Positions 3,781-64,000 of a stretch of 64,000 nt of DNA are shown in pieces. Numbering within the stretch: the stretch's first letter is position 1; every line of letters starts with the position of its first letter. The stretch covers positions 992,001-1,056,000 of the forward strand of contig NZ_CP046457.1 in NCBI RefSeq assembly GCF_009734445.1, in the 5' to 3' direction. Under the pieces are notes generated by a model that did not search any database, was not told the origin of the DNA, and saw only the letters and a list, made by a program, of their open reading frames with translations. The position numbers and the translations under genes are program-made. The stretch is from Candidatus Syntrophocurvum alkaliphilum. GTDB taxonomy: Bacteria; Bacillota; Syntrophomonadia; Syntrophomonadales; Syntrophomonadaceae.

Positions 3781-3806
3781 AGGTTTCACTGCAAATAGCT
3801 GATTAT
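3781..3806 (+). repeat. Dispersed repeat, remnant copy K (left end only)
   Basis: GGTTTCACTGCAAATAGCTG matches the left terminus of the 227 bp repeat family (copies A-C). It lies 9 bases beyond the stop of the sensor kinase gene. Only about 25 bases remain recognisable. Confidence 0.45.
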
Positions 3807-6631: not shown

Positions 6632-6666
6632 CAGTCAAACGCCTCCTTTTTATTAATTATATAGTA

Positions 6667-6711
6667 GTTTCACTGCAAGTAGCTAAAATTAGCCTAACTT
6701 TCAGTAGAACC
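6667..6711 (+). repeat. Dispersed repeat, short degenerate copy J
   Basis: GTTTCACTGCAAGTAGCTA at the left and CTTTCAGTAGAACC at the right correspond to the two ends of the 227 bp repeat, with the whole middle missing. The structure resembles short copy G. It lies between the zincin gene stop and the isochorismatase-like gene. Confidence 0.5.
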
Positions 6712-6747
6712 AATATTTAGTAGAATACACTGGTAATAAAAGGTTAG

Positions 6748-7104
6748 TTATTTTTTGGGGCGCATGTTTATAAGTTCTTTTAATTCCTGTTCTTCTAAAT
6801 AATTTACTCCTGCTAATGATTCTATATGGTGCTGTAACTCATGAAGTATTGTTTCTTTAATTTCTTCTTCCCATTTTTTTTCATTGCTTTCTTTCAATAC
6901 TGAACAAAAAGAACCATAATAAATAACTATATAGTTTCCCATAAACCCATTCTCAATATATTCACCCATTATGTAAAGACCATCTTCTTTTTTATTATCA
7001 GGCAGTAATGAAAAACCTCCATTTAAATTTATTAAAAATTTTTCAGGAATTGTGTTAATTATATCCTCAGTTAAATCCGCAAATTGTTCAAACGATAATT
7101 TCAC
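6748..7104 (-). CDS. Zincin-like metallopeptidase (PF06262 type)
   Basis: A small 118-residue protein. The zinc site is HELQHHIESLAG (~88-99), an HExxH motif followed by a Glu-rich helix. The N-terminal part (FEQFADLTEDIINTIPEKF) and the central GDYI-like segment (MGEYIENGFMGNYIVIYYG) agree with the Zincin_1/DUF1025 family of minimal predicted metallopeptidases. Function in the cell is unknown for the family. It starts at GTG (7104) after AGGAGGG, 10 bases beyond the rtcB stop, so it is probably co-transcribed with rtcB. Confidence 0.8.
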   Translation of the reverse strand: MKLSFEQFADLTEDIINTIPEKFLINLNGGFSLLPDNKKEDGLYIMGEYIENGFMGNYIVIYYGSFCSVLKESNEKKWEEEIKETILHELQHHIESLAGVNYLEEQELKELINMRPKK

Positions 7105-10172: not shown

Positions 10173-10230
10173 GATTCCACTGCAAAAAGCTAAACTTAGA
10201 CTATGGAATCGGCTGAGCAAACATGTTTAT
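10173..10230 (+). repeat. Dispersed repeat, copy D (left quarter only)
   Basis: GATTCCACTGCAAAAAGCTA is followed by the nested-stem sequence GGCTGAGCAAACATGTTTAT, almost identical to the first 58 bases of copy C. It stops abruptly after GTTTAT and the right half is missing. It lies 65 bases beyond the stop of the radical SAM gene and upstream of the CDF promoter. Confidence 0.85.
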
Positions 10231-17326: not shown

Positions 17327-17421
17327 TTTTACACCTCTTATTAAAACCACTTAGTGATTTTTTCTTTTAACCGTATTATAAGATCATAACCACTTAGCAC
17401 AATTAATGATAATTAAATTAT

Positions 17422-17648
17422 GGTTTCACTGCGAAAAGCTAAACTTAGGCTATGGAATCGGCTGAGCAAACATTTTTATCACGCCGCTCATCAGTCTTTA
17501 TCTTCATTTTTGCTTAGCACTTATTATGTAAAGTAAAATTTATTTATACCTAGCCGTGATCTATGCACCACGCCTTGCTACTTAAGGACTTAGATAAACA
17601 TGTTTGCTCAGCCTTAAGTTCTATGTAGTTACTTTTTGCAGCAGAATC
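17422..17648 (+). mobile_element. Dispersed MITE-like repeat, full copy A (227 bp)
   Basis: The left end GGTTTCACTGCGAAAAGCTA pairs imperfectly with the reverse complement of the right end, GATTCTGCTGCAAAAAGTAA. Inside, GGCTGAGCAAACATTTTTAT (17460-17479) pairs with ATAAACATGTTTGCTCAGCC (17594-17613). The centre has no coding potential. The direct repeat AATTAT flanks both ends (17416-17421 and 17649-17654), as expected of a target duplication. It lies between the FMN riboswitch terminator and ribD, so read-through riboflavin mRNA would contain the whole hairpin. The interior is close to copy B and more distant from copy C. Confidence 0.85.
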
Positions 17649-17661
17649 AATTATAGAAAAT

Positions 17662-17685
17662 AAAAAAACCCAGAATTATTCTGGG
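17662..17685 (-). terminator. Terminator of the FMN riboswitch
   Basis: CCCAGAAT-A-ATTCTGGG hairpin (17669-17685) followed on the minus strand by seven T. It lies ~35 bases after the FMN aptamer and is the expected expression platform. Confidence 0.85.
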
Positions 17686-17719: not shown

Positions 17720-17840
17720 TCAGGCCCTTCTTCTCCCATCCAGACTTTAACTGTCGGCTTCGGAATTTCACCGAATCATGCCTTTTGGCTCGCGGGCTTT
17801 ACCGCCGGTAGGGAATTACACCCAACCCCGAAGAAAGGTA
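17720..17840 (-). ncRNA. FMN riboswitch (RFN element)
   Basis: On the minus strand the conserved RFN blocks appear in order: CTTTCTTCGGGGTTGGGTG, AATTCCCTACCGGCGGTAAA, GCCCGCGAGCC, GATTCGGTGAAATTCCGAAG, CCGACAGT and GTCTGGATGGGAGAAGAAGG. These are the hallmarks of the six-helix FMN aptamer. It sits downstream of rpe and upstream of ribD-ribE-ribBA-ribH, with an intrinsic terminator 35 bases on, so FMN should shut off the rib operon by attenuation. Confidence 0.97.
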
Positions 17841-34395: not shown

Positions 34396-34438
34396 ATATT
34401 TCAACCTTTCTTTAAATAATTATTTTAAATAAAAAATT

Positions 34439-34665
34439 GGTTTTACTGCGAAAAGCTAAACTTAGGCTATGGAATCGACTGAGCAAACATGTTTATCACG
34501 CCGCTCATCGGTCTTTATCTTCATTTTTGCTTAGCACTTATTATCTAAAGTAAAATTTATTTATACTTAGCCGTGATCCATGCACCACGCCTTGCTACTT
34601 AAGCACTTAGATAAACATTTTTGCTCAGCCTCAAGTTCTTTGTAGTTATTTTTTGCAGCAGAATC
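34439..34665 (+). mobile_element. Dispersed MITE-like repeat, full copy B (227 bp)
   Basis: Same architecture and length as copy A, with ends GGTTTTACTGCGAAAAGCTA and, as reverse complement, GATTCTGCTGCAAAAAATAA. The nested stem is CTGAGCAAACATGTTTATC against GATAAACATTTTTGCTCAG. The flanking direct repeat is AAAATT (34433-34438 and 34666-34671). Its interior closely resembles copy A. It fills most of the gap between the P-type ATPase stop and the yicC start. Confidence 0.85.
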
Positions 34666-34724
34666 AAAATTATATTTTTTATTTATTAAGTAGCAAATAT
34701 ACTCGTTTAAGTTAAAATTCTCTC

Positions 34725-41375: not shown

Positions 41376-41433
41376 ACTAAATATAAACATGTTAGTTCAG
41401 ACTGTTTTTTGTAGTACTTCTTGCAGCAAAATA
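41376..41433 (+). repeat. Dispersed repeat, decayed copy L (right end only)
   Basis: ATAAACATGTTAGTTCAG followed by TTTTGTAGTACTTCTTGCAG and CAAAAT aligns with the right end of copies A-C (ATAAACATGTTTGCTCAG ... TGTAGTTACTTTTTGCAGCAGAATC). The left part is not recognisable. It lies in the gap after the 128-residue gene. Confidence 0.5.
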
Positions 41434-42105: not shown

Positions 42106-42212
42106 TGAATTATTTCTAAAAAGCAATAGTTTTTATACTATAACTATTCTAGAAGATAGAATTTTGTCCTTTTTATTTATATTTTTTTATTTTTTGTATT
42201 ATTATATCTGTT

Positions 42213-42438
42213 GATTCCACTGCAAAAAGCTAAACTTAGAGTATGGAATCGGCTGAGCAAACATGTTTATCACGCCACTCATCGGTCTTTACCTCGATTT
42301 TAGCTTAGCACTTATTATCTAAAATGATTTTTTATTTATACTTAGCTGTGATCTATGCACCACGCCTTGCTATTCGGACTTAGATAAACATGTTTGCTCA
42401 GCCTTAAGCTTGTTGTAGTTACTTTTTGCAGCAGAATC
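42213..42438 (+). mobile_element. Dispersed MITE-like repeat, full copy C (226 bp)
   Basis: Ends GATTCCACTGCAAAAAGCTA and, as reverse complement, GATTCTGCTGCAAAAAGTAA. The nested arms GGCTGAGCAAACATGTTTAT and ATAAACATGTTTGCTCAGCC are perfectly complementary over 20 bases. The direct repeat ATCTGTT (42206-42212 and 42439-42445) borders it and is not low-complexity, so this copy best shows target duplication. The interior has more differences from A and B than these have from each other. It lies 35 bases beyond the PHP gene stop. Confidence 0.9.
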
Positions 42439-42473
42439 ATCTGTTTATTTGTAAATATTATTTTTCTAGCTCT

Positions 42474-51132: not shown

Positions 51133-51231
51133 GGTTTCACTACGAAAAGCTAAACTTAGACTATGGAATCGGCTGAGTAAACATGTTTACTCAGTCTTAA
51201 ATTTTTTGTAGTTTCTTTTTACAGCAGAATC
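51133..51231 (+). repeat. Dispersed repeat, copy E (internally deleted, 99 bp)
   Basis: Left end GGTTTCACTACGAAAAGCTA, right end TTTTTACAGCAGAATC. The two nested arms are joined directly (GGCTGAGTAAACATGTTTAC-TCAGTC), so the central ~128 bases of the full element are gone and a compact hairpin remains. It is located between the FtsH-like gene terminator and cinA. Confidence 0.85.
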
Positions 51232-53460: not shown

Positions 53461-53563
53461 TGTTTCACTGCGAAAAGCTAAAATTATACTATGATCGACT
53501 GGCAAACATGTTTATCACGCCACTCTTCTGTCTTTATCTTGATTTTGTAGCTATATTATCATT
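53461..53563 (+). repeat. Dispersed repeat, copy F (left half)
   Basis: TGTTTCACTGCGAAAAGCTA, then GGCAAACATGTTTATCACGC and a stretch like the centre of copies A-C (ACTC..TCTGTCTTTATCTTGATTTT). The right arm and right end are missing. It lies between the CoA-transferase stop and its terminator. Confidence 0.75.
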
Positions 53564-61165: not shown

Positions 61166-61229
61166 GGTTTCACTGCGAAAAGCTAAACTTAGACCATGGA
61201 ATCGCTGAGCTACTTTTTGCAGCAGAACC
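61166..61229 (+). repeat. Dispersed repeat, copy G (minimal, 64 bp)
   Basis: Left end GGTTTCACTGCGAAAAGCTA, right end CTACTTTTTGCAGCAGAACC, joined through GGAATCGCTGAG. Only the outer stem and a piece of the nested arm are left. Flanking direct repeat AAATT (61161-61165, 61230-61234). It lies 10 bases after the uppP stop. Confidence 0.8.
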
Positions 61230-62119: not shown

Positions 62120-62178
62120 TGATACTCTGCGAAAAGCTAAATTCATATTAGGGAATCGGGCTAAGCAAACTTTTTATT
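62120..62178 (+). repeat. Dispersed repeat, degenerate copy H (left quarter)
   Basis: TGATACTCTGCGAAAAGCTA then GGAATCGGGCTAAGCAAACT aligns with the left arm of the family; the right part is missing. It lies 10 bases after the ylzJ stop. Confidence 0.6.
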
Positions 62179-63214: not shown

Positions 63215-63303
63215 TGGTTTACTGCTATACTAAGACCCAGTTGAGCAAAATTGTTTATCACGCTACTCGTCAATACTTTATCTCGAATTTGGCTCAGCCT
63301 TTT
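63215..63303 (+). repeat. Dispersed repeat, degenerate copy I
   Basis: TTGGTTTACTGC, TTGAGCAAAATTGTTTATCA, a centre like CGCTACTCGTCAATACTTTA and the right arm GGCTCAGCC follow the order of the full element with large deletions. The right end is absent. It begins where the terminator ends and lies 5 bases after the rnj stop. Confidence 0.65.
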
Positions 63304-63307
63304 TTTA

Positions 63308-64000
63308 CTAAACTTCCATGATTATTGGTAATATCATTGGCCTACGGCCTGTTTTTTCATATAAATGTTTACCTAACTTATCCCTAACCTGAGCTTTTAT
63401 AACTGCCCATTCCGTAAGGTTTTTCTTATAACAAATATCTAAAGCTTCTTTTGCTTTTTCTTTAGCGTCTTCTATAAGCTGTTCAGATTCTCTTACATAA
63501 ACAAAACCTCTTGTTACGATATCTGGACCTGCAACTACTTCGTTATTATCTTTATTTATAGTTACTACTACAATCATTATCCCATCTTGGGATAATTGTT
63601 TACGATCACGAAGTACAATATTTCCTACATCACCAACACCAAGACCATCCACTAAAACTTTACCTGCAGCCACCTTACCATTAAAAGTCGCCTTTTTTCT
63701 ACCTATCTCAATAACTTGTCCATTTTCAGCAACAAATATTTTTGAAGGTGGTATCCCTAAACTTTCCGCTAATTTAGCATGTTTCATTAAATGGCGATAT
63801 TCTCCGTGTACAGGAATAAAATATTTTGGGCGGATTAGATTTATTAATATTTTCAACTCTTCTTGAGCTGAATGCCCAGAAACATGTACCCCTATACCTT
63901 TTTCATAAATCACCTCAGCTCCTTGGCGGAATAATAAATCAACAGTTCGAGCTACAAGTTTTTCATTTCCAGGAATGGGGGTAGCAGATATTATTACTGT
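63308..64000 (-). CDS. rnj: Ribonuclease J, C-terminal part (5' end outside window)
   Basis: The frame is open to the window edge; 230 residues are present. Near the edge TVIISATPIPGNE and LFRQGAEVIY are seen, then HVSGHSAQEELK, RPKYFIPVHGEYRHLMKHA (beta-CASP motif with metal-binding His) and the C-terminal domain ending in RRPMILPIIMEV. RNase J is a 5' exonuclease and endonuclease for mRNA and rRNA. It is followed by tepA-ylzJ as in Bacillus (rnjB-tepA-ylzJ). Confidence 0.96.
   Translation of the reverse strand, partial: TVIISATPIPGNEKLVARTVDLLFRQGAEVIYEKGIGVHVSGHSAQEELKILINLIRPKYFIPVHGEYRHLMKHAKLAESLGIPPSKIFVAENGQVIEIGRKKATFNGKVAAGKVLVDGLGVGDVGNIVLRDRKQLSQDGIMIVVVTINKDNNEVVAGPDIVTRGFVYVRESEQLIEDAKEKAKEALDICYKKNLTEWAVIKAQVRDKLGKHLYEKTGRRPMILPIIMEV

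Follow-up and report, generated by a model that had tools for sequence, protein, structure and literature searches.

The window, by which we mean the whole 64-kb stretch of DNA analysed here, comprises positions 992001-1056000 of the 2,360,781-bp single contig of "Candidatus Syntrophocurvum alkaliphilum" B(2M) (CP046457), an alkaliphilic, salt-tolerant member of the Syntrophomonadaceae that degrades butyrate and comes from a soda lake; no plasmids were detected in its complete genome (PMC7005122). The window carries, all on the plus strand, three full copies of one repeat, whose places and lengths had been given correctly in an earlier note on this DNA: copy A (17422..17648, 227 bp, GGTTT subfamily), copy B (34439..34665, 227 bp) and copy C (42213..42438, 226 bp, GATTCC subfamily). 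Copy A is 94.7% identical to copy B and 88.1% identical to copy C. The target-site repeats that the note had read at the borders are exact in all three cases, namely AATTAT at 17416..17421 and 17649-17654 around copy A, AAAATT at 34433..34438 and 34666-34671 around copy B, and ATCTGTT at 42206..42212 and 42439-42445 around copy C. Two nested inverted repeats, also described before, are present in every copy. The inner pair has 21 bp without a mismatch in copy C, where the left arm (42251..42271, plus strand) and the right arm (42383..42403, minus strand) are 100% complementary, and it departs from this by one base in one arm in copy A and by one base per arm in copy B. The outer, terminal pair is the weaker one, since only 13 of 25 bases match in copies A and B and 16 of 25 in copy C, although 15 of the 17 terminal bases of copy C do so. 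As had been claimed, the element has no coding sequence: the longest overlapping reading frame measures 38 aa for copies A and B and 32 aa for copy C.

Copy A lies between ribD on one side and, on the other, an FMN riboswitch (17724-17839, minus strand) with its terminator-like hairpin (17669-17685), and because of this position it is probably transcribed as part of the riboflavin leader. MITEs of sister genera were seen on the 5' side of riboswitches, of the cobalamin (L131:1526), glmS (L281:619) and molybdenum (L147:1991) kinds. Such adjacency may merely reflect long intergenic regions.

The earlier estimate of about nine shorter relatives in the 64 kb agrees with the nine that BLAST returns, two of them weak. 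All lie on the plus strand. A 99-bp derivative (51133..51231) lacks the middle and has a single inner palindrome between both ends, its flanking repeat not being exact, and a 64-bp derivative that retains both ends (61166..61229) has AAATT on each side. A left-end fragment (10173..10230) corresponds to element positions 1-58 and a left part (53461..53546) to positions 2-89. By BLAST and inspection, decayed fragments of the right end (41380..41433), the left end (62120..62177) and the interior (63242..63312) were recognized as well. The two weak matches are a strongly decayed left end with a possible right end (6666..6765, BLAST E 0.003) and a left end of only 19 bases (3782..3800, E 0.14). Forms of 98-100 bp account for five end pairs in the genome among the matches listed; to judge by the 99-bp copy that the window contains, the full form probably gave rise to them by losing the middle that separates the inner inverted repeats. 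Tiny derivatives of 45-71 bp, hardly more than two ends, were observed at L124:1473-1517, L151:1463-1517 and L137:1501-1571, and repeats still flank those at L124 (AATTTT) and L137 (AAATTT).

Copies, target duplications and age in the host genome

A search of the whole genome, which the earlier note had proposed, yielded at least 56 distinct full-length copies (BLAST hit starting at or before position 14, ending at 215 or beyond and covering at least 205 bases, with 60-base flanks). This figure is a lower bound because not every end in the genome was fetched. The 17-base right end, with up to 2 mismatches, occurs at 130 places versus 1 for the reversed control, a count that includes left ends differing from the right end by 2 mismatches, and the 22-base left end at 89 places versus 0 for its control. 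Pairing 89 left with 89 right ends among the matches listed gave 54 pairs with less than 4 kb between their ends, of which 42 are spaced at 223-229 bp, 11 at 64-196 bp and one at 1868 bp, the last formed by the ends of two neighbouring copies. Among the same matches 35 left and 36 right ends stayed without a partner, some of them because the set of right ends is incomplete. The copies are intergenic almost throughout, 54 of 56 having no overlap with reading frames of at least 100 aa.

An exact target-site duplication of 6-7 bp flanks 39 of the 56 copies, as compared to 5.6% with permuted flanks; the other 17 comprise 14 with none at all and three with 2-5 bp. Since AT heptad repeats could mimic a duplication, we also used a strict set from which the 26 copies flanked by such repeats were dropped, and here duplications were found in 21 of 30 copies versus 2.0% in the control. 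The duplications begin with A in 39 of 39 cases and have T at position 6 in 35 of 39. For one of the copies within heptad repeats, the joined flanks align without gaps to the uninterrupted repeats of L203 (70 bases, 87%) and L204 (64 bases, 89%), which are paralogous empty sites inside a repeat and, owing to the repeat period, weaker than orthologous ones. The 61 and 54 genomes searched include no second member of the genus.

The heptads form a second repeat family (AATTTTG AATTCTT), several copies of which are followed by a GGAAAC...GTTTCC hairpin (for example L195:1500-1555). The pattern occurs at 41 places in G000 (up to 2 mismatches, overlaps counted) versus 3 for the reversed control, and several MITE copies sit inside this family.

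Pairwise identity among the 56 full copies has a median of 92.0%, and since three pairs are identical and 37 of the 1540 pairs reach at least 99%, some insertions are recent. By their first bases the copies divide into a GGTTT subfamily (n=15), a GATTCC subfamily (n=29) and others (n=12).

The probable partner transposase

The copy number, the target-site duplications, the derivatives formed by deletion and the existence, in related genera, of an autonomous partner that has these ends all speak for the earlier proposal of a MITE-like element whose transposase is encoded elsewhere. On these sequence features the 227-bp repeats are very probably a non-autonomous type II MITE family with an IS1182-type partner transposase, type II meaning that a MITE has only its ends in common with the autonomous element, a usage also found in a review (PMC10969869).

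The right end of the MITE, with at most 1 mismatch, is found in 12 of the 54 genomes of the bacterial family, the host included, as compared to a single place for the reversed control in all 54; G034 has 53 such places, G020 15 and G073 12. Among 27 right-end loci from relatives, 17 have a facing second end at 45-676 bp, one is an IS-length pair (in G005) and nine are unpaired. The interiors of the 17 short two-ended elements differ from that of the window element, and 11 of them are flanked by an exact duplication of 6-7 bp. When 20 IS loci of the family were examined for ends of the MITE kind, only one had them (L215, in G020), which counts somewhat against this partner. This genome contains six identical 1920-bp IS with the ends GATGTCACTGC, five flanked by the duplications AATATT, AAGATT, AACAAC, ATTATT and ATTTCTT and the sixth inexactly. 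Their transposase of 562 aa has IS1182 as its best NCBIfam match (167 bits, E 7e-49) and contains the Pfam domains DDE_Tnp_1_6 and DUF772, Pfam domains having been examined for this protein only. Used as a query, it matched in 10 of the 54 genomes, including G024, whose transposase is 51% identical to it and is again best matched by IS1182 (140 bits, E 1e-40). As neither score reaches the 270 bits that NCBIfam sets as the cut-off for IS1182, the two proteins represent a divergent IS1182 branch.

G024 carries three 1904-bp IS with GATTCCACTGCAAAAAC at both ends, flanked by AACCTC, AAGAAT and AATTT, and a fourth with one such end. GATTCCACTGCAAAAAC agrees with the left end of copy C in 16 of 17 bases; in copies A (GGTTTCACTGCGAAAAG) and B (GGTTTTACTGCGAAAAG) the left end resembles the IS end less. 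Aligned by BLAST, the MITE consensus and the G024 IS share 16 of 16 bases at each end and only chance-level 11-base matches inside. Because these IS were found via their protein, the match of their ends is independent evidence. A broken relative in G003 has GATTCCCCTGCAAAAAC at both ends and is flanked by AATATT and AAGATT. The full IS with the same ends that the earlier note had advised looking for thus exists in relatives, as the IS1182-type elements of G024 and G020, but was not found in the genome of the host, where no IS-length element appears among the paired ends listed.

We infer that the 227-bp copies were moved by such an enzyme. The IS1182-type transposase of the sister genera, with about 560-570 aa and the domains DUF772 and DDE_Tnp_1_6, would recognise ends of the form GATTCYRCTGCAAAAAG and would excise or copy the element, which would then be inserted into AT-rich intergenic DNA at cuts staggered by 6-7 bp, mostly at A(N)4-5T.

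But could a different enzyme have mobilized the family? Within the same bacterial family, IS of the ISNCY_1-like group have GATTCYGCTGAAAAA ends that are about as similar to those of the MITE, which deserves weight as a point against the IS1182 partner: the end of the G005 IS differs from the MITE right end in one of 17 bases, the G005 copy is flanked by TAGTTA and TAGCTA, and L183 has the 6-bp duplication TAGCTA on both sides (the flanks of a further relative, L184, are without match). Yet TAGCTA, the clearest duplication of this group, is unlike the A-initial, AT-rich 6-7-mers of the MITE, the IS end has no C at position 11, and the model NF033593 is unmatched in the host genome. Mobilization by this group, or by another transposase, therefore seems unlikely to us, and the ISNCY_1-like IS are plausibly cousins that fit the target less well. 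Still less can be said for IS6, at which the earlier note had weakly hinted as the parent family because the terminus resembles the style of IS6-type ends; part of a TGYTGCAAA core is common to the MITE ends and the IS6 end as written there. IS6 elements duplicate 8 bp, as opposed to the 6-7 bp found here, the corresponding DDE model PF13610 has no match in the genome (E≤0.01), and relatives possess an IS1182-type element whose ends match those of the MITE; we therefore give an IS6-derived MITE almost no credence. The features examined do not agree with an IS6 origin, which would call for an IS6 element with GATTCCACTGCAAAAA ends. REP/RAYT elements, which are not known to make target duplications and have a Y1 transposase as partner, are likewise not what we see, the duplications being present.

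Two further observations concern the ISNCY_1-like elements. L125:1501-2640 in G005 is such an IS, with a transposase frame that lacks its middle part and GATTCTGCTGAAAAA ends beside TAGTTA/TAGCTA. L152 and L153, which score above the NF033593 cut-off, were considered as parents and rejected, having no pairing end of the MITE kind within 4 mismatches.

For the IS1182-type partner preferred here, the host genome itself returned no matches, neither to NF033551 (E≤1) nor to the G020 transposase (E≤0.01). It also has no match to PF13610 and PF00872 (E≤0.01) or to NF033593 and PF01609 (E≤0.001). Since no IS1182-type transposase was found in the assembly, the family is either orphaned, which is how it looks, or dependent on a source outside the assembly, and the enzyme would accordingly have been lost after the last burst or be supplied by DNA that the assembly does not contain. 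Outside the host genome, the 227-bp element has no match in 60 related genomes, copy C has none among plasmids and phages, three exact element patterns of 21-25 bases have none in IMG/VR, and an exact 26-base pattern has none in GTDB contigs, from which the genome of the host itself may be left out. The 17-base end occurs at 27 loci in IMG/VR, none with an inverted partner at up to 3 mismatches, and we take these loci to be unrelated to the family. The G024 transposase matches eight plasmid records and one phage record at 23-32% identity.

Structured RNA and the sister-genus elements

MITEs from G020, G034, G073, G017 and G019 have a GC-rich interior, which shows two-sided change in 8 of 38 pairs (8 sequences), as compared to a mean of 3.7 in shuffles, none of 500 of which reaches 8, and to 0 or 1 in slid structures. 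This supports a covarying RNA in the sister MITEs and does not amount to proof, as the alignment that shows the changes also served to derive the structure, and related sequences may surpass shuffles even when no structure is present. Among 25 sister loci scanned with Rfam, three (L136:1247-1517, L144:1501-1770 and L123:1257-1517; G017 and G019) resemble TwoAYGGAY (RF01731) at 33.3, 31.4 and 30.9 bits, none of which reaches the gathering score of 43; the match in L123 was obtained only when the element was searched alone. The scanned loci of G020, G034 and G073 gave no TwoAYGGAY match. A covariance model of the sister RNA, applied to six sister loci, matched L136, L123 and L270 strongly, L136 and L123 being among the sequences that built it; it matched L282 weakly and L132 and L135 not at all. 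In the window and 12 other loci of the host genome it found no match, so that the window family either never had that RNA or lost it.

Among the G034 MITEs L270, L272, L274, L275, L276, L283, L285 and L129, some contain palindromic modules of about 50 bases with TGTCACTATTAAGG or CGCTATTAAGGACGCTGG. These modules occupy a few internal places and are absent from others; apparently they are another small element lying within the first.

Could selection then maintain the 227-bp repeats at each locus as conserved structured RNAs or as regulatory elements, with the mobile look being secondary? Several observations point that way: a strong predicted hairpin (consensus strands -69 and -83 kcal/mol), the location of copy A in a leader, with ribD on one side and the FMN riboswitch and its terminator-like hairpin on the other, the covarying RNA of the sister-genus MITEs, and the uneven divergence of old copies. 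Divergence per 10-base bin ranges from 0.011, for example at positions 101-110 of old copies, to 0.179, and this unevenness deserves weight as counting somewhat against the MITE/IS1182 explanation. The highest values fall on bins 161-170, 111-120, 1-10 and 81-90, which contain positions that distinguish the subfamilies, and we take subfamily differences to be their cause. Against a selected RNA, inverted repeats give strong folding by themselves, the copies match no Rfam family at gathering score, and the model built from the sister RNA has no match in the window or the 12 other loci. Moreover, transitions make up 301 of the 454 changes in the 38 copies with at least 5 differences. Conservation as a structured RNA, which the earlier note had named as what would refute a mobile origin, was not borne out by the pairs themselves: two-sided change is found in 2 of 54 predicted pairs (24 copies), little above shuffles (mean 0.4, with 26 of 500 reaching 2) and within the 0-6 of slid structures. 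The pair-change counts do not favour a selected RNA, and we consider this explanation very improbable.

Returning to the type II MITE with an IS1182-type partner, a wider picture can be suggested tentatively, as a possibility that we hold well short of probable. The window family may be one branch of an IS1182-ended lineage that extends across the Syntrophomonadaceae with its ends fixed and its interior exchanged, sister branches of which would spread a structured RNA related to TwoAYGGAY. The latter was predicted in 2014 as a CsrA-binding RNA in Clostridia (PMC4333381). If true, transposons would be carrying a regulatory sponge RNA as their cargo, and for the sister bacteria a covarying RNA, CsrA-site-like in two genera, is suggested as the cargo of MITEs.

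Comparison with known elements

Among the known elements closest to the 227-bp family are the IS1182-type IS of G024 and G020, which share with it the end sequence and an A-initial duplication of 5-7 bp and differ in being autonomous, with a length of 1.9 kb, a transposase of 562-572 aa and an interior of no more than chance-level similarity. IS1272 also belongs to the IS1182 family and has a transposase of the same group. It is reported to replace inverted repeats without duplications, whereas the 227-bp elements do duplicate their target (PMC5678879). MITEPye1 of Paracoccus yeei is an element of 159 bp with 4-bp duplications and 1-3 copies per chromosome, which resembles the present family in having no open frame, an intergenic location, a strong predicted stem-loop and a movement in trans that is likewise deduced, and whose 18-bp terminal repeats resemble those of IS1182-family IS (PMC11578231). 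Unlike it, the present family has 227 bp, duplications of 6-7 bp and no fewer than 56 copies, and its genome yielded no matching transposase. Two MITEs linked to ISMac2 (IS1182) in Methanosarcina acetivorans, of 160 and 169 bp with 14 and 7 copies, are IS1182-partnered as well but archaeal; the last column of the published table gives 4 and 0 for them, which we take to be the duplication length (PMC3852290).

Among the matches listed, no title or abstract gave an earlier description of the 227-bp family, subscription papers lying mostly outside this scope. Since MITEPye1 and the two ISMac2-linked elements already represent IS1182-linked MITEs, the kind itself is not new. What is noteworthy in the 227-bp family, as compared to these systems, is the combination of its copy number with the missing enzyme, and its assignment accounts for a high-copy repeat family of the host genome and names the enzyme likely to have moved it.
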